Part shown: positions 2,811-56,788 of the stretch, piece after piece
How positions within the stretch are numbered: the first letter of the stretch is position 1
Layout: each line of letters begins with the position of its first letter
DNA from: Sinohyriopsis cumingii
Lineage: Eukaryota > Mollusca > Bivalvia > Unionida > Unionidae
Direction: 5' to 3'
NCBI GenBank assembly: GCA_028554795.2
Contig: CM068842.1
Span: 22,230,590-22,294,589, forward strand
DNA: 64,000 bases
The notes under the pieces: generated by a model
Seen by the model: only the letters and a program-made list of their open reading frames with translations
Told to the model about the DNA's origin: nothing
The model's database searches: none
Made by a program: the position numbers and the translations under genes

Positions 2811-2826
2811 AGCCCTTTTCAGGGCT
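2811..2826 (+). terminator. Histone-type 3' stem-loop after accessory gene 1 (copy A)
   Basis: AGCCCTTTTCAGGGCT forms a 6-bp stem with a UUUC tetraloop. It fits the metazoan replication-dependent histone mRNA consensus (GGYYYUUHUHARRRCC) except that the outermost G-C pair is A-U, a compensated change. ACCCA follows, as in histone genes. A purine-rich element TAGAAAAGAAATAA starts 11 nt downstream, at the place and with the composition expected of the histone downstream element that pairs with U7 snRNA. By analogy SLBP and U7 snRNP would generate a non-polyadenylated 3' end here. This is inference from sequence only. Confidence 0.8.
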
Positions 2827-3188
2827 ACCCAATACTCTAGAAAAGAAATAACAATCGATTTGCCAATGTGTGTAGGTAGAGTAGTGTGAAAATAAACACT
2901 AACTCCTTTTTTAAAAAATTGTGAGGGTATGTGTTTGTGTGTTTGTGTTTGTAAGTGGTTAAGTAAGTTGGTATGGATAGTAGATTAAAATGATGTCTTT
3001 TTTTGGTGTTTGAGGTGTAAATTTGGGGTTAGATTGGATTGCTTTGCGTATGTGGATAGTCTATTGAAGTGATTTATAAAAAAAATTTAAAATAGTGATG
3101 GGTAGCATAAAAAGTGAGTGAGTGTTTCTTTTAGGTCCGCGCGTTGTTTTTTGGTCATGATGTAGGTAAGATCAATTTTATGTTTTTA

Positions 3189-3229
3189 GGGGATGTTTTC
3201 CTTCACGTCCGCGCTTTCACTATAAATTG
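3189..3229 (+). promoter_or_regulatory. Shared accessory promoter module, before accessory gene 2 (copy A)
   Basis: GGGGATGTTTTCC, TTCACGTCCGCGCTTT and CACTATAAATTG stand in order, with a good TATA box about 55 bases before the ATG at 3279. A second, shorter match (TTTTAGGTCCGCGCGTTG) lies at about 3132-3150, separated by a conserved spacer with GGTCATGATGTAGG. The stretch 2850-3188 otherwise holds only T/G-rich sequence and no gene. Confidence 0.75.
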
Positions 3230-3278
3230 AAACTCGTTCGGCAGTCCAGCTACCCTTGTTGATTGATCAACACCAAAA

Positions 3279-3656
3279 ATGAACACGAGACTGGAGAAAC
3301 TGTTGGAACTTCATGTGCATCTTGAATATGCCAGGCGCATATTAAATGAACTGGCCGCGGAAGCCATTGTGGAGGAGGGAAGGATAAGAGAGGAGGAGGA
3401 AAGAAGAAACAAAGAAGAGGAGGAGAGAAGATATAAAGAAGAAGAGGAAAGAAGATACAAAGAGGAGGAAAGAAGATACAAAGAAGAGGAGGAGGAGGAA
3501 AAGGAGATAAGAAGAAGAAATTTCAGAATCCCAGAGAGCGAAAATTGGGATTCTGAAGCGACATATCCTGCCTCTGCTCTCTCCCCCAAAAAGGTAAAAA
3601 GTAACTGGGGGACAAGATGTGTATGTGGCGCCAGGCCTGGAAGGTGCCACCATTAA
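3279..3656 (+). CDS. Accessory protein 2, Glu-rich coiled coil with Cys/Gly tail (copy A)
   Basis: A 125-residue protein. A conserved N-terminal amphipathic helix (LEKLLELHVHLEYARRILNE) leads into a low-complexity repeat of EEERRYKEE type (residues 37-75), then a conserved PESENWDSEA-type segment and a C-terminus RCVCGARPGRCHH. Only the two ends are conserved between copies A, B and C; the middle differs in length and sequence. The Cys/His tail (two CxC-like cysteines plus Cys-His-His) could bind zinc, but no known fold is recognised. It has its own promoter module and its own histone-type 3' signal. Confidence 0.8.
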   Translation: MNTRLEKLLELHVHLEYARRILNELAAEAIVEEGRIREEEERRNKEEEERRYKEEEERRYKEEERRYKEEEEEEKEIRRRNFRIPESENWDSEATYPASALSPKKVKSNWGTRCVCGARPGRCHH

Positions 3657-3685
3657 CCAGGTGTCCATGAAGTTCCAAAAAAGAC

Positions 3686-3701
3686 AGCCCTTTTCAGGGC
3701 T
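3686..3701 (+). terminator. Histone-type 3' stem-loop after accessory gene 2 (copy A)
   Basis: AGCCCTTTTCAGGGCT lies 30 bases after the stop codon, followed by TACCCA and, 11 nt on, TAGAAAAGAAATAAC. The downstream 50 bases are nearly identical to those after accessory gene 1. Confidence 0.8.
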
Positions 3702-3809
3702 ACCCAATACTCTAGAAAAGAAATAACGATCGATTTGCCAATGTGTGTAGGTAGAGTAGTGTGATTATAAACACTAACTCTTTTTTAAGATAGTGTGAGG
3801 GCATGTGTT

Positions 3810-4057
3810 TGTGTGTTGGTGCTTGTAAGAGCTAAGGTATGTTTGTGGGAATAGTAGATTATAGGTTTCTTTATTGTTTCTTAGCGTAGGTGAAGAGTAT
3901 AGTTAGGGTTCTGTAAGCGCTCACGTACGATTGTGTGGATAGTAGATTATGGATTTTGTTAATTGTTTCTTAGCGTATGTGGAGAGTATAGTTTGGGTTT
4001 TTATTATATGAAATGAGAAAGTATAGTTTGGGTTTTATTATATGAAATGAAAAAGTA
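3810..4057 (+). repeat. Degenerate copies of the ~89-bp accessory-spacer repeat (copy A)
   Basis: Two or three diverged units contain CTCACGTACGATTGTGTGG, then ATAGTAGATTATGG and TTGTTTCTTAGCGTATG. A shorter duplication of TATAGTTTGGGTTTTATTAT follows at about 3990-4045. Copy B has five clean units at 32082-32495. No gene lies here. Confidence 0.65.
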
Positions 4058-4098
4058 GGGGGATGTTTTCCTTCACGTCCGCGCTTTTCGTATAAGAA
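4058..4098 (+). promoter_or_regulatory. Shared accessory promoter module, before accessory gene 3 (copy A)
   Basis: GGGGGATGTTTTCC, TTCACGTCCGCGCTTTTCG and TATAAGAACCC stand about 50 bases before the ATG at 4148. Confidence 0.75.
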
Positions 4099-4147: not shown

Positions 4148-4507
4148 ATGGCTTCTAACCAAATGGACAAAATGGAAAAATTGCAAAACGTCCTCGACAA
4201 TTTAGGAATGATAGAGCAAATGTTGGTTAACCTAAACAAGGATCACTATTCTTATAGTCCCCATCGAGTGAAGATGGAGATAAACAATTTACGAAAAATG
4301 AAGGTAATCATCAGTGATCTGTTGAAAGAAATAAAGGAGGAGAAGGAGGATGAAGAGGAAAGGATAAGGATGAGAGCATGGAATGAAAAAATTGAAAAAG
4401 AAGAAGAAAATGAAAAGAGGAAGAAAGAAGAGGAGGAAGAGAAGAAGAAAGAAGAGCAGGAGAAAAAAAGAAAGAAAAGAAGAGAAAGAGTGTTGGAGAT
4501 AAAATAA
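4148..4507 (+). pseudogene. Accessory protein 3, Lys/Glu coiled coil, C-terminus frameshifted (copy A)
   Basis: The 119-residue frame begins MASNQMDKMEKLQ and shares a conserved first 60 residues with B and C, including DHYSYSPHRVKMEINNLRK. A long Glu/Lys coiled coil follows. Within the A-run at about 4462-4469 copy A has seven A where B has eight, so its last residues (RERVLEIK) are out of frame. The basic C-terminus seen in B and C, which ends in two Trp-spaced Arg clusters, is lost. Function unknown. The lesion is a homopolymer indel and could be a sequencing error. Confidence 0.75.
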
Positions 4508-4554: not shown

Positions 4555-4882
4555 AAAACCCAAAGGCCCTTTTCAGGGCCAGCCATATTTCTCGAAAAGA
4601 GATAGCCTTTCCATTGCCTACCCCTTTTTTTAAATTTAAATTTAAATTTAAATTTAAATTTTAAAAAAATTTAAAAAAAAAAAAAATCCCAAAAGCCCAA
4701 ACTCTATTCCCCCTGTTAATTTCCCTTGTCCCTAGACAGACCCAAACTCTATGTTAAATTCCCATTGTCCCTAAAGTGACCCACGATTTCTCTCCATGTT
4801 AAATTTCCATTGTCCCTAATCTGACCCAGGGGTCTTTTTAATGCTAAGTCCCATTGTCCCTAATGTGCCCCACTTTACTACT
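4555..4882 (-). repeat. Right terminal inverted repeat of copy A
   Basis: It starts at the histone-type stem-loop and includes an AT-rich block (repeated AAATTT) and about four tandem units of roughly 50 bp with the core TTGTCCCTA. It ends CACTTTACTACT at 4882. Its layout equals the TIRs of B and C, but the core motif differs (B: TTGAGGCTA; C outer units: TTGTCGCTA). The partner repeat is off-window. Confidence 0.85.
4565..4580 (+). terminator. Histone-type 3' stem-loop inside the right TIR (copy A)
   Basis: GGCCCTTTTCAGGGCC is a perfect consensus stem-loop. It is preceded by CCAAA, as in canonical histone genes, and followed 13 nt later by GAAAAGAGATAG. It serves the outward-transcribed accessory gene 3. 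Confidence 0.85.
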
Positions 4883-15311: not shown

Positions 15312-15664
15312 AGTAGTGAATGGGGCCACCCTAGCCTCAATGGGAATTAGCATTACAGAGACCCCTGGGCCACTCTAGCCTCAATGGAAAATTAACATGG
15401 AGAAAAATCGTGGGCCACTCTAGCCTCAAGGGGAATTTAACATGGGAAATAGTCTTGGGCTACTCTAGCCTCAAGGGGAATTGAACATGGAGAAAAAACC
15501 CTGGGCCACTCTAGCCTCAAGGGGAATTGAACATGGGATTTTTTTTTTTTTAATTTTTTTTAAAATTTAAACTTAAATTTAAATTTAAAAAAGGGGTAGG
15601 CAATTGAATAAAATCATTCTCTTTTCGAGAAATATGGCTGGCCCTGAAAAGGGCCTTTGGGTTT
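15312..15664 (+). repeat. Left terminal inverted repeat of copy B
   Basis: Five tandem units of roughly 50 bp with the core CTAGCCTCAA are followed by an AT-rich AAATTT block and the histone-type signal. It matches the right TIR (33130-33433) almost exactly apart from one extra unit on the left. Confidence 0.93.
15640..15655 (-). terminator. Histone-type 3' stem-loop inside the left TIR (copy B)
   Basis: On the - strand it reads GGCCCTTTTCAGGGCC, preceded by CCAAA and followed 9-10 nt on by TCTCGAAAAGAGAATGA (15615-15631). It lies 24 bases past the stop of the 77-residue outward gene. Confidence 0.85.
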
Positions 15665-15679
15665 ATGTTAATGTATCCA

Positions 15680-15913
15680 TTAACATAAAGGGCACCGCAT
15701 TGGTCTTCTTCTTGTCCTTAGGCTGCGTTTCACTGTAGGACCGTAAATCAGGACTCTTTTGAGGCATCCTTGTCTTTCTACGTAGATCCTACGTATCCAC
15801 AGACTGGTGTTTGTCCTGTGGACAACGGTCCACTTGGATCGGACATACATGGGTATGTCCGTCCGGAACATCATGGAAGACACAAGCGTAGAAGATTGCA
15901 CATCGGTCCACAT
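15680..15913 (-). CDS. Small Arg-rich left-end protein (copy B)
   Basis: A 77-residue protein starting MWTDVQSSTL. It is rich in Arg, with a CPLC-type Cys pair at the C-terminus. The copy C version (56039-56266) keeps the length, the MFRTDIPxYVRSKW core, the RRxYxERQGCLKxVL segment and the terminal Cys motif while differing at many positions, which supports a real coding frame. It may bind nucleic acid through its basic C-terminus; this is a guess. A TATA box (CTATAAATAAG on the - strand) lies at 15956-15967. It is transcribed outward, toward the element end. Confidence 0.75.
   Translation of the reverse strand: MWTDVQSSTLVSSMMFRTDIPMYVRSKWTVVHRTNTSLWIRRIYVERQGCLKRVLIYGPTVKRSLRTRRRPMRCPLC
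15840..15861. repeat. Palindrome inside the left-end gene (copy B)
   Basis: CGGACATAC and GTATGTCCG are 9-bp arms separated by four bases. In copy C (56091-56112) the arms are 10 bp with a two-base spacer, so the palindrome persists despite local change. Confidence 0.7.
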
Positions 15914-16693: not shown

Positions 16694-16720
16694 ACTCACT
16701 CCTACACCATAAAGAAAAAA

Positions 16721-43133: not shown

Positions 43134-43138
43134 GGCTT

Positions 43139-44464
43139 CTAATAGTCTAGAATGACTTCTCTCAAACTGTTGATTTCTATGGTATTGTCGAATTCTGCAT
43201 ACAGGAGGACGTTCACTGTGTGATCTGGAGGTGGATATGCAAACTGAAGTTCCACACGAATCTGGCCCGATTTTATAGGGTGGAAATGTCCCTCGTCGCT
43301 GCCTTGGTCTGGAGTGAAATCAAAACCCCACAAAGCATAGCCTCCTGCATAATCGTCGTACGAAATACCGTGACTGGTGTTGGTTCCTAACTGTCCCGTG
43401 GCTTCGTACAGGGACAAGTACGATCTCAAATAATTCTTTGCGACACCAAAGTTGGGCTCAAAGGGTCGGGTACACAAGGTCTTGCCGTCGCGACTGACTT
43501 CGATCTTGGACACATTGTAATGTTGAAACTCAAAAGGATTTTGATCGTGGGTTCCATTGAAGGCTGAATTCCTGACGATACCAACAACCAAACGCTTGGG
43601 TAACTGTCCTTGAAACAGATGATCTTCGATCATAGATCGCTGTCCAGCGGGAATGGTGAACGCTTTCACTTCTACGCGTCGTATCGGATACTTGGCGGTC
43701 GTTCTGCTCAACGTCTGACTGACGTCGTTTCCCACTTTAGGTAACACTTCCACACGACGCACGTAAAGTCGGGCTTCTTGAATGATAGTTTTGTATTCGT
43801 TGGCATGGGCCATCAAATGGAAAGCGGCACTGCTACGATTCAGTCTCAGACGGATATCCACCCCGTTCAGCAAATACTTTTCTTGTAACCACATGTCCAA
43901 ATGCAAACGATCCATCAGTTCTAAACTTCGCCCTTGCAGAATTTTCTTACGACGTTCGTTAAACCCCACATTGTGAGGATTGTCATCTTCTGTCAAGACT
44001 GTGTCGCTAAACGTGCCTACACCTGCCGTGTCAGGTTTCCATACCACGCAAGCATCCAGATGAGTATTCTTGGCTTCTTTTCCGTACGTCAAGAGATTTT
44101 CCAAGTAGGCACGATATGGGTAAGTAACCATGCTGCTGATGACCAGTTTGTTATTCAAGTACAAGTCCACTCCACTGAACAAGGAATGCATGAAATTGTT
44201 GACAGGAGCTACTCTAGCATCGCCTCCTGGATTGGTGTTGTCCGTTTTGATCACTTTCACTTTCAAATACAGGTAACTGCTATTCAGATCGATGTAATCT
44301 TCGGGTTGTCCTTTGATTTCAAACTCGATGGGAGCGGAATCCGTCGAAGAGGAGACGGGATGAAATTCCACCCATTGGGATTCTTGCATCGTCATCATGG
44401 TAGGGAGCATGGCAAAGAGATCCAGTTCCGACTTGGAACAAGCACAAGACTCTCGGTGCATCAT
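43139..44464 (-). CDS. MCP: Major capsid protein, intact (copy C)
   Basis: A 441-residue uninterrupted frame from MMHRESCACS to LREVILDY. It keeps PIEFEIKGQPEDYIDL, VDLYLNNKLV, MDRLHLDMW and GHFHPIKSGQIRVE, and diverges from copy B mainly in two surface-like loops (about residues 70-85 and 155-185), as expected of exposed capsid loops. It would form the hexameric shell as trimers of double jelly-rolls, by analogy with the family. Confidence 0.95.
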   Translation of the reverse strand: MMHRESCACSKSELDLFAMLPTMMTMQESQWVEFHPVSSSTDSAPIEFEIKGQPEDYIDLNSSYLYLKVKVIKTDNTNPGGDARVAPVNNFMHSLFSGVDLYLNNKLVISSMVTYPYRAYLENLLTYGKEAKNTHLDACVVWKPDTAGVGTFSDTVLTEDDNPHNVGFNERRKKILQGRSLELMDRLHLDMWLQEKYLLNGVDIRLRLNRSSAAFHLMAHANEYKTIIQEARLYVRRVEVLPKVGNDVSQTLSRTTAKYPIRRVEVKAFTIPAGQRSMIEDHLFQGQLPKRLVVGIVRNSAFNGTHDQNPFEFQHYNVSKIEVSRDGKTLCTRPFEPNFGVAKNYLRSYLSLYEATGQLGTNTSHGISYDDYAGGYALWGFDFTPDQGSDEGHFHPIKSGQIRVELQFAYPPPDHTVNVLLYAEFDNTIEINSLREVILDY

Positions 44465-44477
44465 TTTGTTCTGTGTC

Positions 44478-44903
44478 TCAATAATCGAAAACGTCTAAGT
44501 CTCGAACGGTTCTTCTTTTCTTTGTCTTTCTCGCTTTAGACGTGTGAAGTCTGGTGAAAGGGTGTTTTCTTCGTCGTCTCTTTCTGCCTTGTCCTTGCTG
44601 AATGCTTGACTCGGTAGCGTGCAGGGCATTTATAGGTGTTTCGCGTCGGTCCAAAAGGTCTTTGCCCGTTTGCAGCAAGACATTTTTGCCTGCCCTCATG
44701 AAGGCTTCTTTAGGGTTTTGTTTGTCGATGATGACATTTTGGAGAAATTCTTTGCCTTGCGTCAGTGCCGCATCTTTCAAGGCGTGCAATCCGCGTGTCA
44801 CCATCGGTTTCAACACCGGGGCCACCGAACGAAAGGCCGATTTTAACATATCTCCTAAACCGCGTCCTCGCTGTCGAGCAACCCCTCGGTACACTGGATA
44901 CAT
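44478..44903 (-). CDS. Small basic virion-type protein (copy C)
   Basis: A 141-residue protein. MYPVYRGVARQRGRGLGD start, amphipathic helices and a basic tail (KRRRRKHPF) as in copy B, with three extra residues in the tail. Lies three bases after the penton stop and 14 before the capsid ATG. Confidence 0.8.
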   Translation of the reverse strand: MYPVYRGVARQRGRGLGDMLKSAFRSVAPVLKPMVTRGLHALKDAALTQGKEFLQNVIIDKQNPKEAFMRAGKNVLLQTGKDLLDRRETPINALHATESSIQQGQGRKRRRRKHPFTRLHTSKARKTKKRRTVRDLDVFDY

Positions 44904-44906
44904 GAC

Positions 44907-45839
44907 TTACGAGTCGTGAGAGAACCGTTTTCGAAAATGGAGTTTCACCGTGACTTTTCCTTTGGTGAATGGAATATTTTGTCCCAGAACTCCTTTTATA
45001 GCAATGTTGACCGTGTCCAAATACGACTTGCTGACAGGCAAATAGTGAGGATGGACAAATTCGCGGTGAACGTGATAAGTGTTTCCACCTTCCTCGTCAG
45101 TGACCGTGGCAGAATACACTTTAAAAGGAATGACACGCAGTAACGGTGCGGAGGTGTGTCCCACCACGTTGTACTCCACCACATCGGAATACACAAACAT
45201 CAAATTCAGTCCTTGGTTCAGTTCTACCGGGGCACGAAATAACTTGCTAAAAGACTCGTTGTCGTAAACGATTGGTAATTCGTTTTTCTTGAGCATGGCC
45301 ATTCTCATGTCCATGTCTCCGCCCAACATGTCAAACAATTCAGGACAAAATAAAATGGACAGGATTTTACTCCCGTCAAATTTCATCAAGAAGCGACGAG
45401 CTGCTTTGTGGTATTCCATGGTGACACTTTTTTTGACACTCTCCAAAGCTTTTAGAAACACGACATTAAATCTGGAGGTTATGGTGCTCACCAAATGTTG
45501 ACCACTAAAATAATAGCCTGGAGGAATGAACAAGTGATAGGTGGTGTACTTTTGATTTTTTGTGCCAGGGGTTTTCTTGTCATATTTGCCATAGGTATCC
45601 AAGTACTGTTGCAATTGTTCGTCATGAACTTCTACATCAAAAACATTTTGATCGGGAAGGACATTGAGGACTTGGGTCGGGTGAATGATTTCTACTAAAG
45701 CCACTTCCCAATGGGCTTCGTGATCTAATGGGATGGTCTGAGGTAATTTGGCCATGTAACAGCACAACGTGTTGTTGGGAAACACCTCCATGGAACTGTC
45801 ACTGGGTAAGGTTAAGTAAAATTGGTTTTGGTGACTCAT
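44907..45839 (-). CDS. mCP: Penton-like minor capsid protein (copy C)
   Basis: A 310-residue intact frame with the FYLTLPSDSSMEVFP start and WEVALVEIIHP, and the same C-terminal VTVKLHFRKRF as copy B. The main differences cluster at residues 85-100, a probable surface loop. Its ATG overlaps the previous stop as ATGA. Confidence 0.93.
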   Translation of the reverse strand: MSHQNQFYLTLPSDSSMEVFPNNTLCCYMAKLPQTIPLDHEAHWEVALVEIIHPTQVLNVLPDQNVFDVEVHDEQLQQYLDTYGKYDKKTPGTKNQKYTTYHLFIPPGYYFSGQHLVSTITSRFNVVFLKALESVKKSVTMEYHKAARRFLMKFDGSKILSILFCPELFDMLGGDMDMRMAMLKKNELPIVYDNESFSKLFRAPVELNQGLNLMFVYSDVVEYNVVGHTSAPLLRVIPFKVYSATVTDEEGGNTYHVHREFVHPHYLPVSKSYLDTVNIAIKGVLGQNIPFTKGKVTVKLHFRKRFSHDS

Positions 45840-46252
45840 AATTTCAGAGTTCTGTGGCTGTCCGAGGGGTTACTGGACGTCAGAGGCGTGTCTCCGCCCA
45901 AAATGGGGTTCTGGTTGTGGTTGTTGTTGGAGTGGTGACTGGCACTGGCACTGGACACAAGGTTCCCGTGGTTCCCGTTCGAAGAGAATTTCAGGGAGGG
46001 ATTAGGAAGCAGGTAACCAATGCAACTGCTCAATAAAATGGTCCACAATTGTTTGTCTCCTTGTTGCAAACTCAAATTGGCAATGGCTGCCCCGATGACA
46101 CAATACACCACGAAGATTTGGCAGAAAAAGACGATTTGCGTTTTAGGCACTCGTTCTCCGCACCACAGCCACAAGGGTTGTTTTTGTAAATCTTGCAGAG
46201 AAGAACTAGGTGAAGGAGTGGTCGACGTAGCTGCGTCTGTGTGAAAGGGCAT
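45836..46252 (-). CDS. Two-pass membrane protein (copy C)
   Basis: A 138-residue intact frame from MPFHTDAATS, with two hydrophobic segments (FFCQIFVVYCVIG and LWTILLSSCIGYLLP) and the Asn/His/Ser tail. Further upstream in-frame codons belong to the frameshifted end of the integrase gene. Confidence 0.85.
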   Translation of the reverse strand: MPFHTDAATSTTPSPSSSLQDLQKQPLWLWCGERVPKTQIVFFCQIFVVYCVIGAAIANLSLQQGDKQLWTILLSSCIGYLLPNPSLKFSSNGNHGNLVSSASASHHSNNNHNQNPILGGDTPLTSSNPSDSHRTLKL

Positions 46253-47366
46253 GATGGTCACTTCTTTTTTTAGTCGATGACTTGCGAAGCGTCGATCCAA
46301 GAATCAAAACTGGGTGGATATCCTTTCCAACGTACTTTACTTCTTTGACACTTCGTTTGCCTACTTTACGGGTTCTGCGTTCGAGAATGCGTTCGATGTC
46401 GTACACGTCGTCTTCTTTTTTGGTGACACGTTCTAACTCGGGCAAATAAAACGTTCCTTTGAGCACTTCTCCGTTCATGTCTTCCAATTTATAGAGGGCA
46501 GGATGACGGCCATGCACTCGTCCAGTGACACGAAACAATTCGGTCGTCCAGTTAGGTAAGTAACCTTTGTCGAAAGTGCATTTGGTTTTGCCAATGCGCA
46601 CCCAATCTCCTACGGTCAACTCTCCACTTTTCGTGGGGACAACCCTCGTCGGGGACGTACCAAACAGGCGCTCAAACACCAACACTTCGTTGTCGGGAGT
46701 CACTTCTTGCGGGGCACGTCCGATGCTTCGATGGTAAGATTGGTTGTACGCTTGCACCAGGTACGGTAAGATGTCGATGTACTTTAGAGTGTGGTGATGC
46801 GTAAAATATTTCCACATGCGTTCTTTCAAAGTGCGTTGAAAACGTTCCACGATGCTGGCTTTGGTTTCGGGATTCTCGGTGGTAAAAAAATGAATGTCAC
46901 GTTTCTTTAATTCTTTTTGGAAAGCTTGGTTCAGAAATTCGGTACCTTTGTCCGTTTGCCATCGAAGAGGGTGACGACCACTTTGTTTCAACACTCGTTG
47001 CAGGGCTCGCACTAACTCGCTGCTCGATTTGGAAGTCAAGGGCACGACCCAGGCAAATTTGGAAAAGACGTCGATGACACAAAACAAATATTTGTAGCCA
47101 CGATTGTAGCTGGCCAAATGAGAGACATCGGCTAAATCGGCTTGCCATTGATGATCGATGCCTTCCACTCGGGTGCGACTTCTGGCAAACTTGCGTCGAA
47201 TGGGTTTGTGTAAAGTGTAGGTAGCTTGTTCTTGTAACCATCGTTGCACTTGAGGTAAACGGAGACTTTTCAATCGAGTTTTGGCAGCACGATACAATTT
47301 TTGAACTCCTGCGTAACCTGCAGGATGAGAGGGATCGTAGTAAATGCTGGCTAAGACTTTTTCCAT
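46206..47366 (-). CDS. INT: Retroviral-type integrase, catalytic core intact, chromodomain frameshifted (copy C)
   Basis: A 386-residue frame. Catalytic residues are Asp77 in QADLADVS, Asp139 in WQTDKGTEF and Glu174 in ASIVERF, the last two 35 residues apart as in DDE integrases. No clear HHCC zinc domain precedes them. The chromodomain begins (VYDIERILERR) but a one-base loss near 46344 shifts the frame before the WKGY strand, so the last 42 residues are unrelated and run past the normal end into the next gene. The core may be active but the chromatin-reading end is lost. Confidence 0.92.
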   Translation of the reverse strand: MEKVLASIYYDPSHPAGYAGVQKLYRAAKTRLKSLRLPQVQRWLQEQATYTLHKPIRRKFARSRTRVEGIDHQWQADLADVSHLASYNRGYKYLFCVIDVFSKFAWVVPLTSKSSSELVRALQRVLKQSGRHPLRWQTDKGTEFLNQAFQKELKKRDIHFFTTENPETKASIVERFQRTLKERMWKYFTHHHTLKYIDILPYLVQAYNQSYHRSIGRAPQEVTPDNEVLVFERLFGTSPTRVVPTKSGELTVGDWVRIGKTKCTFDKGYLPNWTTELFRVTGRVHGRHPALYKLEDMNGEVLKGTFYLPELERVTKKEDDVYDIERILERRTRKVGKRSVKEVKYVGKDIHPVLILGSTLRKSSTKKRSDHHALSHRRSYVDHSFT

Positions 47367-47393
47367 TTTTTTGTGTTTGTGTGTTAATCAGAC

Positions 47394-48027
47394 ACCCACT
47401 CTTGGAGGATGCAACTCTTTTTCTCTTGGGGTACTTTCTTGGATTGCAGTGCTTTGCGTGTGCGACCGGCAATAGGTGTTGAAGAGAAGGATGTCTGAGC
47501 GGGGGATATCGGTTCTTGTTTCACTTCTGTCTACACTTCTGTCTTCACTTTCTTTTTCTCTTGTGATGAAGAAGGAGTGGCCATCATCTTTTTAATCCAT
47601 CCAATTCTGGAGGTAGGTGGTGTTGTTAACTTGCGTACTTTTTCGGTGGAGTTTGAAGCCCTTCTTCTTCTTCTTCTCCTTTTTCTGTCTTGGTCACTGG
47701 TAGTGGTGGTACTGGAACTGGTACTGGTACTGGTGATGGTGCTGGACTTTTCATCAAGGTCTTAAAATCTTTCAAAGTGGGTAGAGCTGTTTCGTCTAAA
47801 GCTTTCTGGTGAAAGAGTTGCAGTCGTTGCAAGAGTTGATCGTACTTTTGCGATTTTTCTGTTTCGGACAAATCTTGGAGATCCATCAAGGACTGCAATT
47901 CGTGTTGTAACTGGGACATCTCGCTCAAATGGGGATTGGGAGGTAAATGCGGGGTGCGTTGTTCTTGCCACCGATGGTATTCCATCCATCGTTTGTAAGG
48001 CACTAAAGCTAGTTTTCGTCCTTCCAT
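47394..48027 (-). pseudogene. Coiled-coil / PxP-repeat protein, broken (copy C)
   Basis: Homologue of the 211-residue copy B gene, from MEGRKLALVPYKRW to a SCILQEWV-like end. The frame is continuous for 133 residues, then a one-base loss near 47643 shifts it, and a TAG at 47531-47533 lies in the KTEVKTEVK repeats. The PVPVPV repeat is longer than in B. Confidence 0.85.
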
Positions 48028-48076
48028 GGGGTTGTCAGGGATCGATTCTGAGGTATTGGGACTTCCGAGGGCCTTT

Positions 48077-48481
48077 TTATCTTGCTCCCACCAGTTCTCC
48101 CAACATGGTTCCCAAGACTCCTTCCAGTAAGGGACCTAACAAGAGGGGTAAAATGCCTCCACGTTGGACCAACATCTTCTTCTTTTGACGAATGGGAATT
48201 TTCTTTTGAACCATTTGGCGAAGAACGTGACGATGTTTACCTAAGCATTGTTTCTGGTGTTTGGACAAAGGGATCGTGCCTTTCAAGACGTTCAAGCAGC
48301 ATTCGCACACGGTATCGATGACCTCTTTGGAGGCCGATTGAATGAGTTGTTTTCGTAGGGGTGGAGAAGCTTTGGACAGGACAGATAACATGTCCCCATG
48401 TTTAACTAAACGAGGAGGCAGACCTTTTCTTTTCTTTCCTTGGGGCTGTTTAGAAGAGGGATGTTTTCTGGAGGGCGACAT
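48077..48481 (-). CDS. Small basic protein with hydrophobic Gly-rich C-terminus (copy C)
   Basis: A 134-residue intact frame. It differs from B by seven additional residues in the basic N-terminus (HPSSKQP region) and by single changes in the hydrophobic end (ILPLLLGPLLEGVLGTML). Confidence 0.78.
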   Translation of the reverse strand: MSPSRKHPSSKQPQGKKRKGLPPRLVKHGDMLSVLSKASPPLRKQLIQSASKEVIDTVCECCLNVLKGTIPLSKHQKQCLGKHRHVLRQMVQKKIPIRQKKKMLVQRGGILPLLLGPLLEGVLGTMLGELVGAR

Positions 48482-48536
48482 CTTTGAGTCTTCAGCACCA
48501 AAAACACTGATACCCCTACTTGGTCACAAACCTTTT

Positions 48537-49457
48537 TTATACTGGGACGCGTCGCCACTGATTGTCTTTACGTCGTATCAGTTTGAGGACAGGCATGACA
48601 CGTCGTGCAGGGGTACGTAACGGACTAAATCGAGCCAGTTCTTGCTTGGACAAATCCAGTAAACTTTGTAACATGCCCGATCTTTCTTGGACTTTGATTT
48701 TGGGAGAAGGTACTTTGTGAGCAGCAGCCACTGCCACTAAATTGGAGGGTCCTGCCACTGGGGAAGTTCTTCTTGGGGTCATCAACGGAGATGTTCTTGG
48801 TGTGATCAACGTCTCCAAGTACTCTTCAGTTCTTGGTGTCATCAACGGAGAAGTGGATCAACTTGAGGCTGCCGAAGACGCAGTCACCGCCGTGGCAGGT
48901 CGTGCTTTGCGAGTGAAAAGTTGCGTCCTGGCCGAAGTGCCCCTCTTGCGACTAGTTTTCTTCTGTGGACTTTTCTTTTTCTGGGGGCTTCTTTTCTTTT
49001 TCCGGGGTGGCGTCTGGTAAGAGGAGGGTCCCGCCACTGGAGAAGTTCTCTTTGGGGACCTGGTCTTTTTCTTCTTCTTGGAGCTTCGTTTGACTTTTTT
49101 CTTGGGGAGAAGTTTGGGGGCATTAGGATCCCATCTTAAGAGTGAGCGAATGATGACCCCTCCTAGAGTACCGCTCCCTCCAGGTTTCAAAATGATTTGT
49201 TTTTTGGTTTGAGTGTCGATGCGGGGATCGGCCAGTTGGGTCAAAGCGACTTTGTTTCGATCAAAAAAACGTTTGGTTTGATGAGGAATCTGAATGATTC
49301 CTTGGAGTAATTGACGTGCCGTCACCGTGAACCATCGTAAGACTTCTTTGAGACTAGCTTCTAAGACACGAGCTCGTGTTTGTGGATTTTTTTCGCGACT
49401 GATGCCATACAAGGCACGAATCAATTTGACGGGAAGATGCGACTGAAGGGACGTCAT
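48537..49457 (-). pseudogene. Lys-rich putative core protein with one in-frame stop (copy C)
   Basis: The frame from MTSLQSHLPV runs 199 residues to a TGA at 48858-48860 within the Ser-rich linker (copy B has TCA there). It then continues in the same frame to the conserved C-terminal helix. The basic low-complexity block is shorter than in B. An apparent upstream start at 49463 is TTG. Confidence 0.85.
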
Positions 49458-49525
49458 GTTCAAAATGTGTGTGAGACAGACGAAAAGGGTCTGAGGTTTT
49501 TATAGATTTTTTTTGTGGAGTGAAA

Positions 49526-50254
49526 TTAAGTCGAGGACGGAGACGTGTACAGGACAGGCCCTCCGTCTTGGCACCAGTGGTGAAACAAGTGGGTACGAAA
49601 TCGCAAATCCTCGGGGGTCGTAGGTTTCAAATCGACGAGTAAATAGGCGTGTGGAGTTTGAGTGGCATCGTCGTACGCCTGAGTCAGCCAAGGTGTCCCT
49701 AACTGTTTGGCTAAGACTTGCACTTGCGATTTATGTCGAGGGCTTTTAAACAAGACCACGTAATGCGCATTGAGACTGATGGTGCGATTGGCTTTACTTT
49801 GTTGAAACAAATTTTGGGTGATGTAAACGACACTGGCATTACGGTGATGCCCTTTGCGCGTGAACCACAGTTTAATTTCTTCTTCGTCTTCTCCTAACAT
49901 GTCGTCAAAAATGACCAAATGGGTTTGACGGGAGTCAGACACGATGCCGTCGTCTTCTTTAGGAATGCCTTCCACAAACACGATGGAATCGCCTTGACTT
50001 TCTCGCAAGAGGCTGTACGCCGATTGCCACTCTTTGTAACACCACACGATCCGCTGAGGTGGTGGATCGATCAAATGATGTTTATGTTCGATCAAACGTT
50101 TGACGAATTCGGTTTTGCCTGAACCGCTAGGTCCTGCAATGAGCATTTTAAAGAGATGACGAAGATACAAAGCCTCCCAACTGGCACGATCTAAGTGTTC
50201 GTCGATGACTTTGACAGTAGAGGAAGAGGGAGCAGAGACAGCAGAGGTAGCCAT
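49526..50254 (-). CDS. ATPase: FtsK/HerA-type DNA-packaging ATPase (copy C)
   Basis: A 242-residue intact frame with Walker A GPSGSGKT (41-48) and Walker B LVIFDDML (about 117-118). It differs from B at some ten positions and in the last few residues. Its survival while the polymerase of the same copy has decayed is notable. Confidence 0.95.
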   Translation of the reverse strand: MATSAVSAPSSSTVKVIDEHLDRASWEALYLRHLFKMLIAGPSGSGKTEFVKRLIEHKHHLIDPPPQRIVWCYKEWQSAYSLLRESQGDSIVFVEGIPKEDDGIVSDSRQTHLVIFDDMLGEDEEEIKLWFTRKGHHRNASVVYITQNLFQQSKANRTISLNAHYVVLFKSPRHKSQVQVLAKQLGTPWLTQAYDDATQTPHAYLLVDLKPTTPEDLRFRTHLFHHWCQDGGPVLYTSPSST

Positions 50255-50267
50255 AGTGTCTGGAATG

Positions 50268-50711
50268 TCACTTGTGACACGAAAACAAACAAGACCAGAG
50301 TTTATATACTTTTTTCAGAACACGTTTATTGAATGTTTCAAACATGAATACGAAAGACAAAAAAATACATAAAAGCCAAAGGCTTAAGTACAAGGATAAA
50401 AGGCACATGATAACCATCAACGTGGAATAAACACAAGTGTCTGTACAACATGTTTTGGGTAATGTTCTGACCAGTTCTATAGGGGGTAAGGTCACACAAG
50501 TGTCCTCCCGAAAGGGTCTTTCAGGCCTGTCCACGACAGTCCCGTCCTGGGTGATGGGTTCTTCTGGCACCGTCACTAACAGAGGTTGAAAAGTCGCAAG
50601 GCTCACAATCGCATTCCACTTCAGAAGCCCCACACTTGAATTGTGCCTGTCTAAACTTGTTTTGAGTTTCTCTAAAAGTATGCATCTTGTTCGCTCGGTC
50701 TTGGTAGTCAC
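50268..50711 (-). pseudogene. Single-pass membrane protein, N-terminus frame uncertain (copy C)
   Basis: The core (VTVPEEPITQDGTVVDRPER to MVIMCLLSLYLSLWLLCIF) is homologous to the 97-residue copy B protein. The open frame begins with a GTG codon. The nearest ATG, near 50685, is in another frame, so the N-terminus looks frameshifted relative to B. Length variation in an A-run extends the C-terminus by about 20 residues past the B stop. Confidence 0.65.
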
Positions 50712-50726
50712 AATGAACTATCGATC

Positions 50727-53700
50727 TTACCTAGGGTTCCTTTTTATATACAGACCAATACCGACGTGTCCATACGGTAAGGTGAAATGATTGGAAAGTC
50801 GCACTCGCTTCTGGTACACGATTTGATAGACTTTTTCCAAGGGTCGACTGACGATGTGGTGAGTGGGTAAACGTACAATCTTGTTGGGTTGATAGGTGGT
50901 CACTTTAAAGTTTCCATCCTCTCCCGATTGCAAGGCTTCTTTCAATACCCCAAAGTTCACCACACGACTGGTACGATAATTCAGAGTCAATCCTTTCACT
51001 TTACACGTCGTGTGCAATTCTCGTTGTGGGTCCCGGTATTCGTAGCCGTAATTTTTGGGACCACCACTGACGAAATTAGAATCTTGTCGTCGGGATGTTC
51101 GTCTGTCCAGGCTCCTAAACGGTCTCCTTCGATGTCAGGGTGCTGTTGACTCGGGTGATGGATGTAAATGCAGCTGTCTGTGTCAAAGTACAGGACGCGT
51201 TCCCCTAACAGTTCTAAAGCTTCGTACAATTTTAAGCGAGCATGAGCTGTCACGTAAGCCGCAATGATGACATTTCCAAAGGGGTCGTCTTGTACAAAGT
51301 CCAGATCTTCTTCGCAATTGACCAAGATCAAATCCTCGCGAACGACGTCCACGTGTTTCATGTATTTGGTTTTGTCGTGAATCATCTGAAAGTAGCGGGA
51401 AGGTTCTGTCAAATATTCCGTCTTGGGTAAACACGGACGTTGTGCCATTTTACCCCACAAGCAATTTAACATCACTTTGGCAAACGACCGCCTGCCTTCG
51501 TTTTTCTCGATGTGGTCTAAAGAGATGCCTTCTTGTTCATAGTATTTCTCTTTGAATGTCTTTTCGTCTTCGGAAGTGTGACACCTGGAAGGATAGCCGC
51601 TGGCTTCTTGCTTCAGTTTCAAAAAGGCATCCACGTAGTCGGCGAAAATGCCTTTCTGCGTGGGGTCACCCTTGTGGTATTGTTGTGTCTTGGGAAAGTG
51701 GCAAATTTCGTACACTTCTAACAGTTGGTATCCCATGTCCAGAGCTTTGAACAATTCTACGCTGACCCAGGTTCCCGTCAAGGCCCGTTCTTCCTGGGTG
51801 TGCTGACAAGGTTGGTACTCGTGTTCCCACATTTCCACCACTTGGTATCCTTGCTGTTCTAACTTTAGGCGTCGCTGACAAGTGTCCTGGTACAAGTCTT
51901 CCATGGTTCGTTGTAAAAACTGATTTTTAGTGCTACGATCAGGGTAACAGACGGGACATCCGTGAAATAAGCAACCGTTAAACTCGTACACGATCTTGGG
52001 GTTTTCTAAGTCCCAGCCATCGACCGAATACGTTCCGATGGTCTTTTCGCCCCCTCCGTTGCGGGCATGCTGAATCCATTTGTCTTCCTTGTCGCACAAG
52101 TAATGTAACCCACGTAGGGCTTTGACCGAGTATTGACGTTTGACATAGTGGGTCGTTTGAGGACTACGTTTGACATAGTGGGTCGTTTGAGGACTGATGA
52201 CAGCACGGTGTTTTCAGGCATGAATCGTTGTCGATACACTAAGGAACACGCTTTGGCAATGGTGCAAGCTTCTTTCAAAGGATCGACCCCTCCGTGTTCC
52301 ATGAACAGTTCTCGAAATTTTCCACAGCAACGCCGTAAAATGTCCACGTCGGAACGACAATACTTTAGCATTTCTTCCTGAAAGTCGAAAGGGTCGGAGG
52401 CGTGAGTCTGGTACCAAGCGTAGAAAGCTTCTCGTTGTTCGGTACGCATGTTGTCGGGGTCGTAATAGTGAGCCTCAGGCAAATGGGGTAGAACGGCATG
52501 TTGATTGGCTTCCGTATTGAAAAAGTGTGGAAAGTACCCTTTAGCCATTTCTGTCATTCCAAACGTTTTAGGCATTCGACTCAAAGGCATGGCCAAATAG
52601 CTCATCGAATCTTTAAACTGCACTTGTCCCACTTGCATGAAAATGATTTTGGCTCCGTTCAAAGTCACTTTAGGACGTTCGGTGCCTTGTTCCGTATAGT
52701 ATCTGAGAAGAAACTGTCCATCGTATCCGGAGAAATTGTGAGCCATCACTGTGGCATGACGATGACAATCTCCGTAACGTTCGATGTCCTCTTGGCTCCA
52801 CGTCTTGTCGATGGGATCTAAGACCCATTGGGCAAAATCGGCTAACGTGTTCGGTCCTCGAAAGATTTTTTCACGCCCTCCAGGAATCTTGCTGCAGTGA
52901 GGATGCACTTCTCGCACGCTCGATGAGCCACGCAGAAATTGGGAATGTGAATGCCAGTCTCTTGCATGCATTCGAAATCGAAAAAGATGAAATTGCCTTT
53001 CTTCTTGTGACCGTCCTCTTTCTCTGGTGGGGGTTGGTATTTTTGCACGTAGCATTCGTGTTGCAGGTCCACGATGTGGTGACAAATGTGACATTTTTTT
53101 CCCCTGAACATACGTGTGTCTTGGTACTGTTGGTACGTAGGCCTTGTCGACACGTAGGGCACAATCTCAGCAGCTGACAAGCACATTTCTGCTGTGAACC
53201 TTGCGTCTTCAGATGTTGTTGGTAACAGGCAGGGCTGACAAACGTGCACAGACAAGCAGGACAATGTACTCTTTTTTGTCCTTCGCTCAGACAGGGTGGA
53301 TAGGCCAAACATCCTGGGCATTTCCATCCGCAATGTTTGTGTTGCTCTCGATTGTTATAGCCATAGTCACATTTCTCACAGTAATAACTGTATCCCAGGA
53401 ATCCAGTGATAGTGGTAATGGTATCGAAATGGTCATCATGATAATAGACATGAATGTATTTTCCGTCCTTAAAGTCTTTCCCTCGAAACAACAGAAGTCC
53501 GCGCATTTCTTGAGGGTGCACTTTCAAGGTGTATCGTGGAGCTAGGACATCTTGCAATTTCTGCATCTCAGGATTGCCACAGGGTGTGTCTTTGGACAGT
53601 CCGGCTTGTTGTAACAGGAGTTCTGCTTCGTTTCGTTGTTTGGCTCGATCGGATCGTTGAATAGTTTTCCAGGCTCTTTTCCATTCTACCGTGTCGTTCT

Positions 53701-54387
53701 TGTTGGCATAGGTTCGTCCCACAACGATGGCTCGGGCTAAACACATCTGGTCTTGAGAATTGTGAATTTGGACGAGACTCTTTTTGGTGTTGCGAAGGTC
53801 GTTCACCAATAACACCTTATTGCGTTGTCCGGTCCCTTGAGGAGGAGAGACGTGGGCCATTTTCAGTGTGGCTTTACCATCGGTGATGTCAAACTGGTCA
53901 TTAGATTGTTGTACGTGTTGAATCTTGTCCATGACTTTGGAAGGGGTTAGTTCTGCGGGTCTGCTAAACTCGATCCAAACAGGGGATTTCAAGCTGTCGT
54001 GATATATGGATAGTGTCAAGCGATCGTCTTCTTTGGGTTGACATTGTCGCTTGAGTGCGGTGAGCAAAGAATCCCACATCTCGATGATAAACCCTTCTGC
54101 TTTCTCCAATGGTACGTCGGACTTGAAATCTTTAAACTTCACTGTGTAGGTGTAAGCCGTGGTTCTAAATTTTCTAGAGGAGCGCTTTTCCGTCTCTCGA
54201 ATGGAATAGTACTTTTCAGGGTTGACTAAGGGAGGTGAACTTTGTTTAGAGGGTTCGGATTCTGGTTCACTCATGTCCTCTTCAAAATCACTGGCATGAA
54301 TTTGTGCGAAGACTTCAGCTCTGGTACGAGGCGATAGATCACGTTTCTGCCTCTTACTTTCTTCTCGAATGAATAGGATCGTTTCAT
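50727..54387 (-). pseudogene. PolB: Protein-primed family B DNA polymerase, multiply broken (copy C)
   Basis: Homologous to the copy B polymerase throughout. Visible lesions, 5' to 3': loss of 16 bases just after the start; a one-base loss near 53099; a 25-base deletion near 52895; a 30-bp tandem duplication and a one-base loss at 52133-52205; an in-frame deletion of about 400 bp near 51810 that removes the whole of Pol motif A; a one-base loss near 51085. Exo motifs and motif C remain recognisable. The N-terminal extension and the polymerase are one frame here (CAG where B has TAG). Confidence 0.93.
52131..52195 (-). repeat. 30-bp tandem duplication in the copy C polymerase
   Basis: GTTTGACATAGTGGGTCGTT followed by TGAGGACTAC occurs twice head to tail. 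Copy B has a single unit at the same place. Confidence 0.9.
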
Positions 54388-54415
54388 CTTGAGTGCAAAA
54401 CGTCAAATGACTCAA

Positions 54416-54522
54416 GTTTAAACACCATAGACTAATTTATAGTTATGGCAAACCAGCGTATATAAAAAGGGTGTGTGTCTTATCCTTTCACTATTCATTT
54501 CACTCTCTAACCGAGCACAACG
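54416..54522. promoter_or_regulatory. Divergent promoter between polymerase and zinc-knuckle genes (copy C)
   Basis: TATA boxes in both directions (TATATAAAAAGGG on the + strand at about 54459 and CTATAAATTAG on the - strand at about 54430), as in copy B. Confidence 0.65.
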
Positions 54523-54972
54523 ATGGAAGAGACTACCCAGATGGAACGTTTCATCAGAGCTTTGCGAGGGGTCATTAGAAAATTCTCTTCAGACCAGCCG
54601 ACGAACTACTCTCCTTCCTTTCGAGATAAAAGTCAAGATACTTGCTATAGCTGTCAGAAGAAAGGGCATTGGTCTTCAGAGTGTCCAGACCGTCAAAAAA
54701 TAACAAAAACAGGGGCTAGAAAAGACAAAAGTCAAGATACCTGTTATTATTGTCAAGAAAAAGGACATTGGTCTCCAGATTGCCCAAAAAAGAAACAAGA
54801 GGAGTCGGAAGAAAAGAGGAATTCTTCAGAAGAAGAGAGAGATTCTTCAGAGGAAGAAAGCAGCCAGGTGAAGAAAAAGAAACAGAAGAAGAAAAGAAGA
54901 AGGGAAGAAAGTGAGGAGGAAGAGGAGGAAAAGACTGTGACGGTGAAGAAATTGAAGAAAAAGAGAGAGTAA
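54523..54972 (+). CDS. Double CCHC zinc-knuckle protein, intact (copy C)
   Basis: A 149-residue protein. A helical N-terminus (METTQ-like, QMERFIRALRGVIRKF) precedes two CCHC knuckles, CYSCQKKGHWSSEC (about 42-55) and CYYCQEKGHWSPDC (about 75-88), separated by about 20 residues. The C-terminal half is Ser/Glu repeats followed by Lys/Arg clusters. Zinc knuckles of this kind bind single-stranded nucleic acid in retroviral Gag and cellular proteins. Divergent transcription from the polymerase suggests a replication partner, perhaps an ssDNA-binding protein; that is inference. Confidence 0.88.
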   Translation: MEETTQMERFIRALRGVIRKFSSDQPTNYSPSFRDKSQDTCYSCQKKGHWSSECPDRQKITKTGARKDKSQDTCYYCQEKGHWSPDCPKKKQEESEEKRNSSEEERDSSEEESSQVKKKKQKKKRRREESEEEEEEKTVTVKKLKKKRE

Positions 54973-55222
54973 AAAAAAGAAACAGAAGAAGTGAATGTAA
55001 TTTATAAAGTGTTCTGTTGTGAATTGTGAATTGGATTGTAACTATGGAGAAAAGAATACATTAATTATATAAGGTAAGTGTCTTTGAGTTTTGATTTTAA
55101 ATAAGAAGCTACACTCACGCACTCATACACAGACATGTACTATAAGGGTAATATGGGTTTTTTTTGTTGATTTTTGAGTTATTGGCAAATTGAAAGGCTA
55201 TCTCTTTTCGAGAGAAGTGGGT

Positions 55223-55238
55223 GGCCCTGAAAAGGGCC
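55223..55238 (-). terminator. Histone-type 3' stem-loop after the Gln-rich gene (copy C)
   Basis: GGCCCTTTTCAGGGCC on the - strand, 22 bases past the stop, followed by ACCCACTTCTCTCG then AAAAGAGATAG. Here the U7-like element is the full AAAAGAG, unlike the copy B counterpart. Confidence 0.83.
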
Positions 55239-55259
55239 TTGTTTGGTGTAGGGGTGAGT

Positions 55260-55817
55260 TTAAGCAATCAACTTTAACTGCCTTAAGCCTTTGCCACGGC
55301 CGAGGCCTACTTCTGATGATGATGATTGGGTTGAAATCACTAAGGGTGGTACGATAGGCTTAGTCACAGGGTTGGCGTGTTTAGCTCGGGAAGGTCGTAT
55401 TCTCTTCGGTCGTGATAAAGAAGTCTGATACATTTGTTTCAGACTTCTTAACTCCGCTAAAATGTCCAACAGTACCGTGGCCGTTTGATTTTCACCCTCT
55501 TGTTTCTTTGCTGCTACTTCTTCTTCTTCTTGTTTTTTTCTTACCTCTTCTTGTTGCTGTTGCTGTTGCTGTAGGAGAAAAGCTTGTTCCGCTTCCTTTT
55601 GTCGTTGCATAAATTTCTCCAATTCTTCTTTCTGTCTCTGTCTAAAATTCTCCACTTGCGGTAATGAAGAATGAGACGAAGGTTCCGGAACAAATTCTTG
55701 CGAGGTAAGAAAATCCACAAAATCCCAATGTACCTCTTCTGAAAGTAAGTCCGGGTTCCCTTGGGCGGTCTCCACTGCTGGTGCACCCCACTGAATCGTT
55801 TTCTGAGTTTCCGTCAT
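55260..55817 (-). CDS. Gln-rich coiled-coil protein, intact (copy C)
   Basis: A 185-residue protein. Acidic N-terminus (EEVHWDFVDFLTSQEFVPEP), helix with a Q7 run, EEEEVAAKKQEGENQ linker, LLDILAELRSLKQMYQ helix, then a basic RPKRIRPSRAKH segment and a Gly/Leu-rich end. No family recognised. It is divergent from the small Arg-rich end gene across a CRE/CCAAT promoter, which may mean both are early or S-phase-linked products. Confidence 0.82.
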   Translation of the reverse strand: MTETQKTIQWGAPAVETAQGNPDLLSEEVHWDFVDFLTSQEFVPEPSSHSSLPQVENFRQRQKEELEKFMQRQKEAEQAFLLQQQQQQQEEVRKKQEEEEVAAKKQEGENQTATVLLDILAELRSLKQMYQTSLSRPKRIRPSRAKHANPVTKPIVPPLVISTQSSSSEVGLGRGKGLRQLKLIA

Positions 55818-56038
55818 GTTGAATCACTGTCTCGCATCGATTGACTGCACACAGGCGCTAGCGAATCTATATAGACCACGTGACGTCACAGACTGCTCTC
55901 TTCGGATTGGATGCGGGCTGACTGAATTTTGTAACGCGTGTTTGGATTGGTCAATGAACTCAATCCGTTTCAATCCTTCCTCTCCTTATAAATAAGCGCA
56001 GTTCAGTGCAGTCACTCACCTGTTTTCGGAGCCTCAAG
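55818..56038. promoter_or_regulatory. Divergent CRE/CCAAT/TATA promoter region (copy C)
   Basis: CACGTGACGTCA (E-box overlapping a perfect CRE, 55881-55888), ATTGG boxes at about 55916 and 55947, and TATA boxes CTATATAG (- strand gene, near 55868) and TTATAAATAAG (+ strand gene, near 55986). Same elements and order as B although the intervening bases differ. Confidence 0.68.
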
Positions 56039-56266
56039 ATGTGGACCGACGTTCAATCTTCCACCCTTGTGTCAACAATGATGTTCAGGACGGACATACC
56101 CAGGTATGTCCGATCCAAGTGGACTGTTGTCGATAGGACAGATACTAGTCTATGGATGAGAAGAGTTTACATAGAAAGACAAGGATGCCTCAAGAAGGTA
56201 CTTGTGTATGGACCTGCAGTTAGAAGGAGTTTAAGAAGAAGATGTGACAGATGCCGTCTATGTTAA
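56039..56266 (+). CDS. Small Arg-rich left-end protein (copy C)
   Basis: A 75-residue protein from MWTDVQSS (an ATG 33 bases upstream is in frame, but lies close to the TATA box). It retains MFRTDIPRYVRSKW, RRVYIERQGCLKKVL and ends RCDRCRLC, a CxxCxxC-like tail. Compared with B it is shorter by two residues and differs in about a quarter of positions. It is transcribed outward to the element end. Confidence 0.75.
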   Translation: MWTDVQSSTLVSTMMFRTDIPRYVRSKWTVVDRTDTSLWMRRVYIERQGCLKKVLVYGPAVRRSLRRRCDRCRLC

Positions 56267-56278
56267 TATTAACATAAA

Positions 56279-56788
56279 ACCAAAGGCCCTTTTCAGGGCC
56301 ACCCACATTTCTCGAAAAGAGACTGACTTTCCATTGCCTACCCCTTTTTTAATTTTTTTTTTTTTTTTAAATCCCATGTTCAATTCCCCTTGTCCCTAAA
56401 GTAGTTTTTTTTTTCTAACATGTTCAATTCCCCTTTGTCCCTAGACAAACCCAAACTCTATTCCCATGTTCAATTCCCCTTGTCCCTAAAGTAGTTTTTT
56501 TTTTCTAACATGTTCAATTCCCCTTTGTCCCTAGACAAACCCAAACTCTATTCCCCATGTTCAATTGCCTTTGTCCCTAGAATCGATATTTTTTTCCATT
56601 GTTCGAATGCCTTTGTCGCTAGAATGGATATTTCCTTTTTTTTTCCTTTCTCCAATGTTAAATTCCATTGTCGCTAATCTTACCCAGGGTTTTTTGCACA
56701 TGTTAAATTTCCATTGTCGCTAATCTTACCCAGGGGGGTGTTTTTAATGCTAATTCCCATTGTCGCTAATCTCACCCCATTCACTACT
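56279..56788 (-). repeat. Right-hand terminal inverted repeat of copy C
   Basis: Mirror of 39420-39924. The inner unit around CTATTCCCATGTTCAATTCC is duplicated relative to that end. Ends CCCATTCACTACT at 56788, followed by the duplicated CCTATA. Confidence 0.93.
56286..56301 (+). terminator. Histone-type 3' stem-loop inside the TIR, after the Arg-rich gene (copy C)
   Basis: ACCAAA, GGCCCTTTTCAGGGCC, ACCCACATTTCTCG, then AAAAGAGACTGAC. Taken in this order it is the best overall match in the window to a canonical animal histone 3' end. Confidence 0.87.

Follow-up and report, generated by a model that had tools for sequence, protein, structure and literature searches.

To our knowledge, replication-dependent histone genes are considered the sole users of the SLBP/U7 pathway in animals. 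The hairpins of human histone genes include GGCCCTTTTCAGGGCC and GGCCCTTTTAAGGGCC, and one histone gene, human H2AX, combines a stem-loop with a poly(A) site (PMC7807067). On the side of mobile elements, another study counts 6 histone 3′ untranslated region (UTR) hairpins among Polinton-like virus and virophage genomes, listed without comment, and for its cryptophyte elements it gives only tRNAs and group I introns (PMC12220804). Apart from this count, among the matches listed in our literature search, which covered a minority of the subscription papers, we found no Polinton genes described with histone-type promoters or 3′ ends. Here we describe a stretch of 64,000 nucleotides (nt) from the bivalve Sinohyriopsis cumingii (contig CM068842.1, positions 22,230,590 to 22,294,589; hereafter the window), in which three Polintons very probably express five types of small accessory gene with the signals of the host's replication-dependent histone genes, as judged from the sequence.

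Histone-type 3′ ends in the window and the host genome

An earlier note on this DNA had listed 13 hairpins in three copies, always downstream and in the sense of a small gene, and had seen in them the 3′-end architecture of metazoan replication-dependent histone mRNAs. Its coordinates and strands are correct: the pattern GCCCTTTTCAGGGC has 13 exact matches in the window, against an expectation of 0 in shuffles, and allowing up to 2 mismatches adds no site. The sites belong to three elements, element 1 being represented by its right part alone, and each hairpin lies 18-57 nt past the stop codon of a small open reading frame (ORF) in its sense, the L1 gene of element 2 being broken. Five gene types are involved. 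accA, accB and accC stand in a row at the right end of the element, and L1 and L2 form a divergent pair at the left end.

The note had also proposed a search with the Rfam model of the histone 3′ UTR. RF00032 indeed matches all 13 sites at E<=0.016, and in the rest of the window it has no match at E<=1; its gathering score of 34 bits is exceeded by 5 of the 13 (scores in Table 1). The remaining Rfam matches in the window at E<=1 are to mir-297 (one, on repetitive sequence) and, weakly, to SBWMV1_UPD-PKh (two). For example, the 3′ end of accA in element 1 consists, in order, of an A-rich flank, the hairpin AGCCCTTTTCAGGGCT, ACCCA and the purine element TAGAAAAGAAA.

The same layout is found in the host's own histone genes. 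In the genome, an 8.3-kb histone unit is repeated in tandem (150 of 662 candidates scored, four stretches read), and in one such unit H3, H4, H2B, H2A and H1 each have a hairpin 27-38 nt past the stop codon, followed 13-14 nt later by GAAAAG. The H1 protein of the host has 4689 relatives; among the best 120 the first stands at 98%, and those with a species name include Mytilus, Saccostrea and Crassostrea and, further down, a gastropod and a chiton, as befits a mollusc and most likely a bivalve. RF00032 scores these host sites at 35.0-39.4 bits, a range that overlaps with that of the Polinton sites. The hairpin of host H2B is the 16-nt hairpin of accC, L1 and L2, while CTCTAGAAAAGA is common to host H2B, accA and accB, and the purine element of the Polinton sites matches that of the five host genes in core and spacing. 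When 9 of the 13 window sites are aligned with the 5 from the host, all 84 pair cells are standard, a percentage paired that was reached by 0 of 500 shuffles, and two pairs are changed on both sides. All 14 have a 6-bp stem, in which the second pair is G-C, and a 4-nt U-rich loop; the core is the same in the other 4 window sites. A 16-nt match between the elements and the H3 coding sequence (window positions 338, 26187 and 46247) lies where a core ORF begins and was rejected as chance.

Beyond the window, we searched the genome (2.9 Gb in 1138 contigs) for the exact 14-nt hairpin core and found 56,759 copies, a count that takes in the host H2B genes with the same core, compared with 3 for the reversed control pattern. 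From 100 of these core places, all in the first 3.1 Mb of one contig, we drew 28 loci, a sample that is not random. Together with the window they provide 61 distinct sites, all selected through the exact core and counted without repeats or sites at stretch edges. The closing pair, described in the earlier note as compensated, is intact at 61 of 61 sites (35 G-C and 26 A-U), and the purine element, likewise described there, follows in 60 of 61 at about 13 nt past the hairpin. The 100 core places include 41 neighbouring pairs less than 1300 nt apart: 18 are minus-plus at 1066-1104 nt, corresponding to the divergent L1/L2 genes, 23 are on the same strand and none is plus-minus. Six places seemed to lack the exact core, and all six carry a site with one change, which at three of them is the loop variant TTTTA, as in host H2A.

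Separately, a TTGYC-like (TTGCC-like) motif starts 32-35 nt past the hairpin, after the purine element, in 60 of the 61 sites. In the host it is found 33-35 nt past the hairpin, as TTGYC in H1, H2A and H4, CTGCC in H3 and TTGTT in H2B. This motif is a third element common to host histone and Polinton 3′ ends, and possibly it also takes part in histone 3′ processing in this lineage.

A promoter block common to accA, accB, accC and host histone genes

Upstream of accA, accB and accC we found a block of 26 base pairs (bp), GATGTTTTCCTTCACGTCCGCGCTTT, in nine strong copies and one weak copy. The block is an addition to the earlier note, which left it unmentioned. The nine strong copies start 75-90 nt before the ATG; elsewhere in the window the block was not found at up to 5 mismatches, and each of 10 shuffles gave 0. 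The host histone unit has the block ahead of H2B (23/26) and H1 (22/26), 105-107 nt before the ATG, and an inverted, weaker copy (20/26) between H2B and H2A. The best match in 200 shuffled histone units is 18/26.

The accB gene additionally carries TTTCTTTTAGGTCCGCGCGTT, all 21 nt of which are identical to the host H4 promoter in each of the three copies; no exact match of the window to the histone unit is longer (all words of at least 15, simple sequence excluded). In the non-random genome sample, restricted to sites that have 750 nt or more of sequence upstream, the block was found ahead of all 20 right-end hairpins (9 accA/accB and 11 accC). The core ACGTCCGCG resembles what we take to be the motif of the H4 gene factor HINFP (HiNF-P). 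HiNF-P acts with NPAT at H4 promoters, as stated in PMC5706932.

L1 and L2 share a short divergent promoter (15913-16133 and 55817-56039) with CCAAT and TGACGTCA boxes and no 26-bp block. Their divergent arrangement somewhat resembles that of divergent histone gene pairs.

The earlier note had suggested that the element uses the histone machinery to make S-phase-linked mRNAs. The 3′ layout and the promoters of three of the five gene types lend support to this interpretation at the level of sequence, and the match of the accA, accB and accC promoters to host histone promoters supports the S-phase part independently. The comparison of host and elements also reveals two shared elements for which we found no explanation, the 26-bp promoter block and the TTGYC-like motif.

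Proposed use of the histone programme and its alternatives

Promoter and 3′ end together suggest that the host's replication-dependent histone programme is used for the accessory genes. We propose that accA, accB and accC would start from promoters built like those of host H1 and H2B, and accB also like that of H4, and that all five gene types would end in the A-rich flank, hairpin, ACCCA-type tail and purine element 13 nt on. We infer that the pre-mRNA would be bound by host SLBP, paired at the purine element with the host U7 small nuclear ribonucleoprotein and cut 4-5 nt past the hairpin, with no poly(A) added. The proteins would be made in S phase, when the replication state of the cell is usable by the element and may be of benefit to it, and the accessory mRNAs would be destroyed after S phase. 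That the genes are wholly in the histone programme, with S-phase, poly(A)-minus, SLBP-controlled mRNAs made perhaps in or near histone locus bodies, seems probable to us, though less firmly so than the use of the signals. The likeliest origin of these signals is capture from host histone genes or adaptation to resemble them.

A number of observations weigh against this proposal. Eight of the 13 window sites score under the RF00032 gathering score (24.6-33.9 bits), and the two-sided pair count in the 14-site alignment was reached by 26 of 500 shuffles. The purine element is missing at one of the 61 sites, and at three of the six one-change sites the change is in the stem and breaks a pair. The promoter block was found upstream of 0 of 18 left-end hairpins (9 L1 and 9 L2) in the sample, and L1 and L2 of the window are also without it. 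AATAAA follows the hairpin after 50-64 nt at 3 of the 13 sites (2812, 16722 and 31075), so polyadenylated transcripts are possible at those sites. The Rfam search for U7 in the host genome gave 0 matches (65 of 801960 candidates scored), and a U7-like pattern (pairing plus Sm site) gave 572 matches, fewer than the 914 of its reversed control; five of the first 100 listed candidates were inspected, and none had a convincing U7 3′ hairpin. The SLBP Pfam domain gave 0 matches in the host at E<=0.001, and among four weak matches at E<=10 the 3 inspected were not SLBP-like. Finally, the hairpin was found in none of four fragments with distant relatives of the element's capsid-like protein, the fragments being short or degraded.

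These fragments, which lie in microbial metagenome-assembled genomes (MAGs) and came from a scan of genome contigs with the capsid-like alignment, are taken for host contamination. A single-protein scan of genome contigs gave no relatives, and neither did scans of viral contigs with PolB, the capsid-like alignment and the accB alignment. DNA patterns gave 0, 0 and 4 matches in the viral contigs; the four, which have a G+C of 0.46-0.62 and show no histone-type flanks in the sequence around the match, were taken for chance. As for the host factors, the SLBP domain may be split by introns, and U7 is treated as not found rather than absent. Both are likely present, since these sites also occur on the histone genes of the host itself.

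The alternative that fares best is that the hairpins serve 3′-end formation only, with SLBP/U7-processed or mixed ends and without S-phase control; this would spare the genes the need for a poly(A) signal or block read-through beyond the element. The hairpins of L2 and accC (5 of 13) lie in the terminal inverted repeats (TIRs), as the earlier note had correctly listed, and they point outward, as such a purpose would have it. Poly(A) signals near some sites and the block-free promoter of L1 and L2 would also agree with it. In addition to the three sites above, site 15641 has ATTAAA at 85 nt and site 33140 has AATAAA at 393 nt, outside the element; at 8 of 13 sites neither AATAAA nor ATTAAA was found within 400 nt downstream. 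Nevertheless, processing of the 3′ end alone leaves unexplained the block in three of the five gene types as well as the H4 element of accB, and we consider this alternative unlikely.

The accessory genes could also carry inert relics, pieces of histone genes that were captured and copied along without function. Capture would fit the likeness to the H2B, H1 and H4 promoters and to the H2B and H2A 3′ ends. However, across the window the hairpin does not vary, being identical at 16 of 16 nt in 7 of 7 copy pairs of accB, accC and L2, whose coding and downstream sequences differ and whose synonymous sites are close to saturation. All 13 sites keep the layout and the sense orientation, and the genome sample shows this layout again. 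The coding regions are moreover under purifying selection: the ratio of nonsynonymous to synonymous divergence (dN/dS) is at most 0.20 in 3 of 3 pairs for accA, 0.15-0.24 for accB (dS 0.8-2.1), 0.08-0.11 for accC (dS 1.0-1.2) and 0.11 for L2 (dS 1.1), which indicates that these four are real genes; for L1 it is 0.55 over the compared part, with 10 changes. We therefore regard inert relics as very improbable. Still less credible is a DNA-level hairpin, a replication or recombination signal of the TIRs that resembles the histone hairpin by chance, since the 5 of 13 sites within TIRs that speak for it are outnumbered by 8 outside them, all 13 are oriented with a gene and then followed by a purine element, and the likeness to host histone 3′ ends extends beyond the hairpin.

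If expression through host histone signals is true, it would show how Polintons tie themselves to the DNA replication of the cell, add a new class of SLBP/U7 clients and provide a directly testable link of transposon expansion to S phase.

The elements and their comparison with known systems

We assign the elements to the Polintons because they encode PolB (E 1e-43), a Pox_A32-type ATPase (2.4e-7) and a chromodomain protein (Chromo, 8.1e-9) that adjoins a weak match to the rve integrase core (0.015), together with a weak match to Peptidase_C5, the adenain or adenovirus-type protease (0.0099), the last two lying below the Pfam cut-offs. TIRs and 6-bp target duplications are also present; the element ends were set by hand and are approximate. 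An ORF of 419 amino acids (27943-29202) has 1283 relatives, and the species named among the best 120 are bivalves (genera Mercenaria, Crassostrea, Ostrea and Saccostrea), plus one bacterial MAG. It is taken for the capsid protein, a putative assignment in that no Pfam model names the ORF. Past the core genes, an AATAAA precedes the accA promoter block by 134-136 nt in all three copies (2204, 30468 and 42415). Coordinates of the elements, accessory genes and their signals are collected in Table 1.

Table 1. Positions of the Polintons, their accessory genes and the histone-type signals in the window
Feature	Element	Positions	Strand	Remark
Element, right part	1	1..~4882	+	truncated by window start; end set by hand, repeats
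Element	2	~15312..33433	+	6-bp target duplication GTGGTC; ends set by hand
Element	3	~39420..56788	-	6-bp target duplication TATAGG; ends set by hand
accA block	1	2338..2363	+	
accA ORF	1	2427..2783	+	
accA 3′ end	1	2806..2851	+	RF00032 31.0 bits
accB 21 bp = host H4 promoter	1	3125..3145	+	
accB block	1	3192..3217	+	
accB ORF	1	3279..3656	+	
accB 3′ end	1	3681..3726	+	RF00032 24.6 bits, lowest of 13
accC block	1	4062..4087	+	
accC ORF	1	4148..4507	+	
accC 3′ end	1	4560..4605	+	RF00032 35.6 bits; within right TIR
L2 3′ end	2	15615..15660	-	RF00032 33.9 bits; within left TIR, outward-pointing
L2 ORF	2	15680..15913	-	divergent from L1
L1 ORF, broken	2	16133..16429 and 16526..16693	+	
L1 3′ end	2	16716..16760	+	RF00032 40.2 bits
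accA block	2	30604..30629	+	
accA ORF	2	30692..31045	+	
accA 3′ end	2	31069..31114	+	RF00032 31.0 bits
accB 21 bp = host H4 promoter	2	31389..31409	+	
accB block	2	31465..31490	+	
accB ORF	2	31551..31862	+	
accB 3′ end	2	31886..31931	+	RF00032 31.0 bits
accC second, weaker block	2	32580..32605	+	4 mismatches
accC block	2	32649..32674	+	first 17 nt = host H2B promoter
accC ORF	2	32724..33113	+	
accC 3′ end	2	33134..33179	+	RF00032 33.9 bits; within right TIR
accC 3′ end	3	39876..39921	-	RF00032 40.4 bits; within right TIR
accC ORF	3	39935..40324	-	
accC block	3	40385..40410	-	
accB 3′ end	3	40786..40831	-	RF00032 29.3 bits
accB ORF	3	40852..41304	-	
accB block	3	41366..41391	-	
accB 21 bp = host H4 promoter	3	41437..41457	-	
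accA 3′ end	3	41740..41785	-	RF00032 29.8 bits
accA ORF	3	41826..42191	-	
accA block	3	42256..42281	-	
L1 3′ end	3	55198..55243	-	RF00032 35.7 bits
L1 ORF, intact	3	55260..55817	-	
L2 ORF	3	56039..56266	+	divergent from L1
L2 3′ end	3	56280..56325	+	RF00032 40.4 bits; within left TIR, outward-pointing

Eight of the 13 accessory copies were scanned against Pfam (accA 2, accB 2, accC 1, L1 1 and L2 2); these had no match above the curated cut-off, to histones or otherwise. The accB protein has a strongly conserved C-terminus, RCVCGARPGRC.H, and at least 15 relatives in public sequence among the scored candidates, those sharing most words. The N-terminal stretches of accA, accB and accC look similar by eye and coiled-coil-like, and the three genes may go back to old duplications of one another.

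Elements 2 and 3 differ little in their ATPase genes (dS 0.06), compared with a dS of about 1 for their accB, accC and L2. Accordingly, the element ends look exchanged between lineages, which would make the elements mosaic. Between L1 and the core genes lies a zinc-knuckle gene (16986-17528 on the minus strand and 54523-54972 on the plus strand) without a histone-type hairpin, whose copy in element 2 matches zf-CCHC at 1.5e-6. Between elements 2 and 3 we noted a possible reverse transcriptase fragment (38189-38518, minus strand; RVT_1, E 2.5e-6), with 27.8 bits slightly under the cut-off of 29.6.

At five sites per element, the roughly 57,000 hairpin cores of the genome would correspond to an order of 10,000 Polintons, a very large expansion for one mollusc genome. 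With so many cores, the sites on elements may far outnumber the host histone genes and could compete with them for SLBP and U7.

The accessory genes resemble metazoan replication-dependent histone genes in the hairpin, the A-rich flank, the ACCCA-type tail and the short 3′ UTR, and those of this host also in the spacing of the purine element and, for accA, accB and accC, in the promoter block. Unlike histone genes, they code for small non-histone Polinton proteins and reside on a mobile element in very many copies. The dual 3′ ends of human H2AX could apply to the Polinton copies with a downstream AATAAA, although H2AX, unlike these, is a cellular histone gene. As a whole, the elements are like Polinton/Maverick elements in PolB, the A32-type ATPase, the chromodomain protein by a weak integrase match, the TIRs and the 6-bp duplications, and they differ from those described in having accessory genes that appear to be under histone-gene control.

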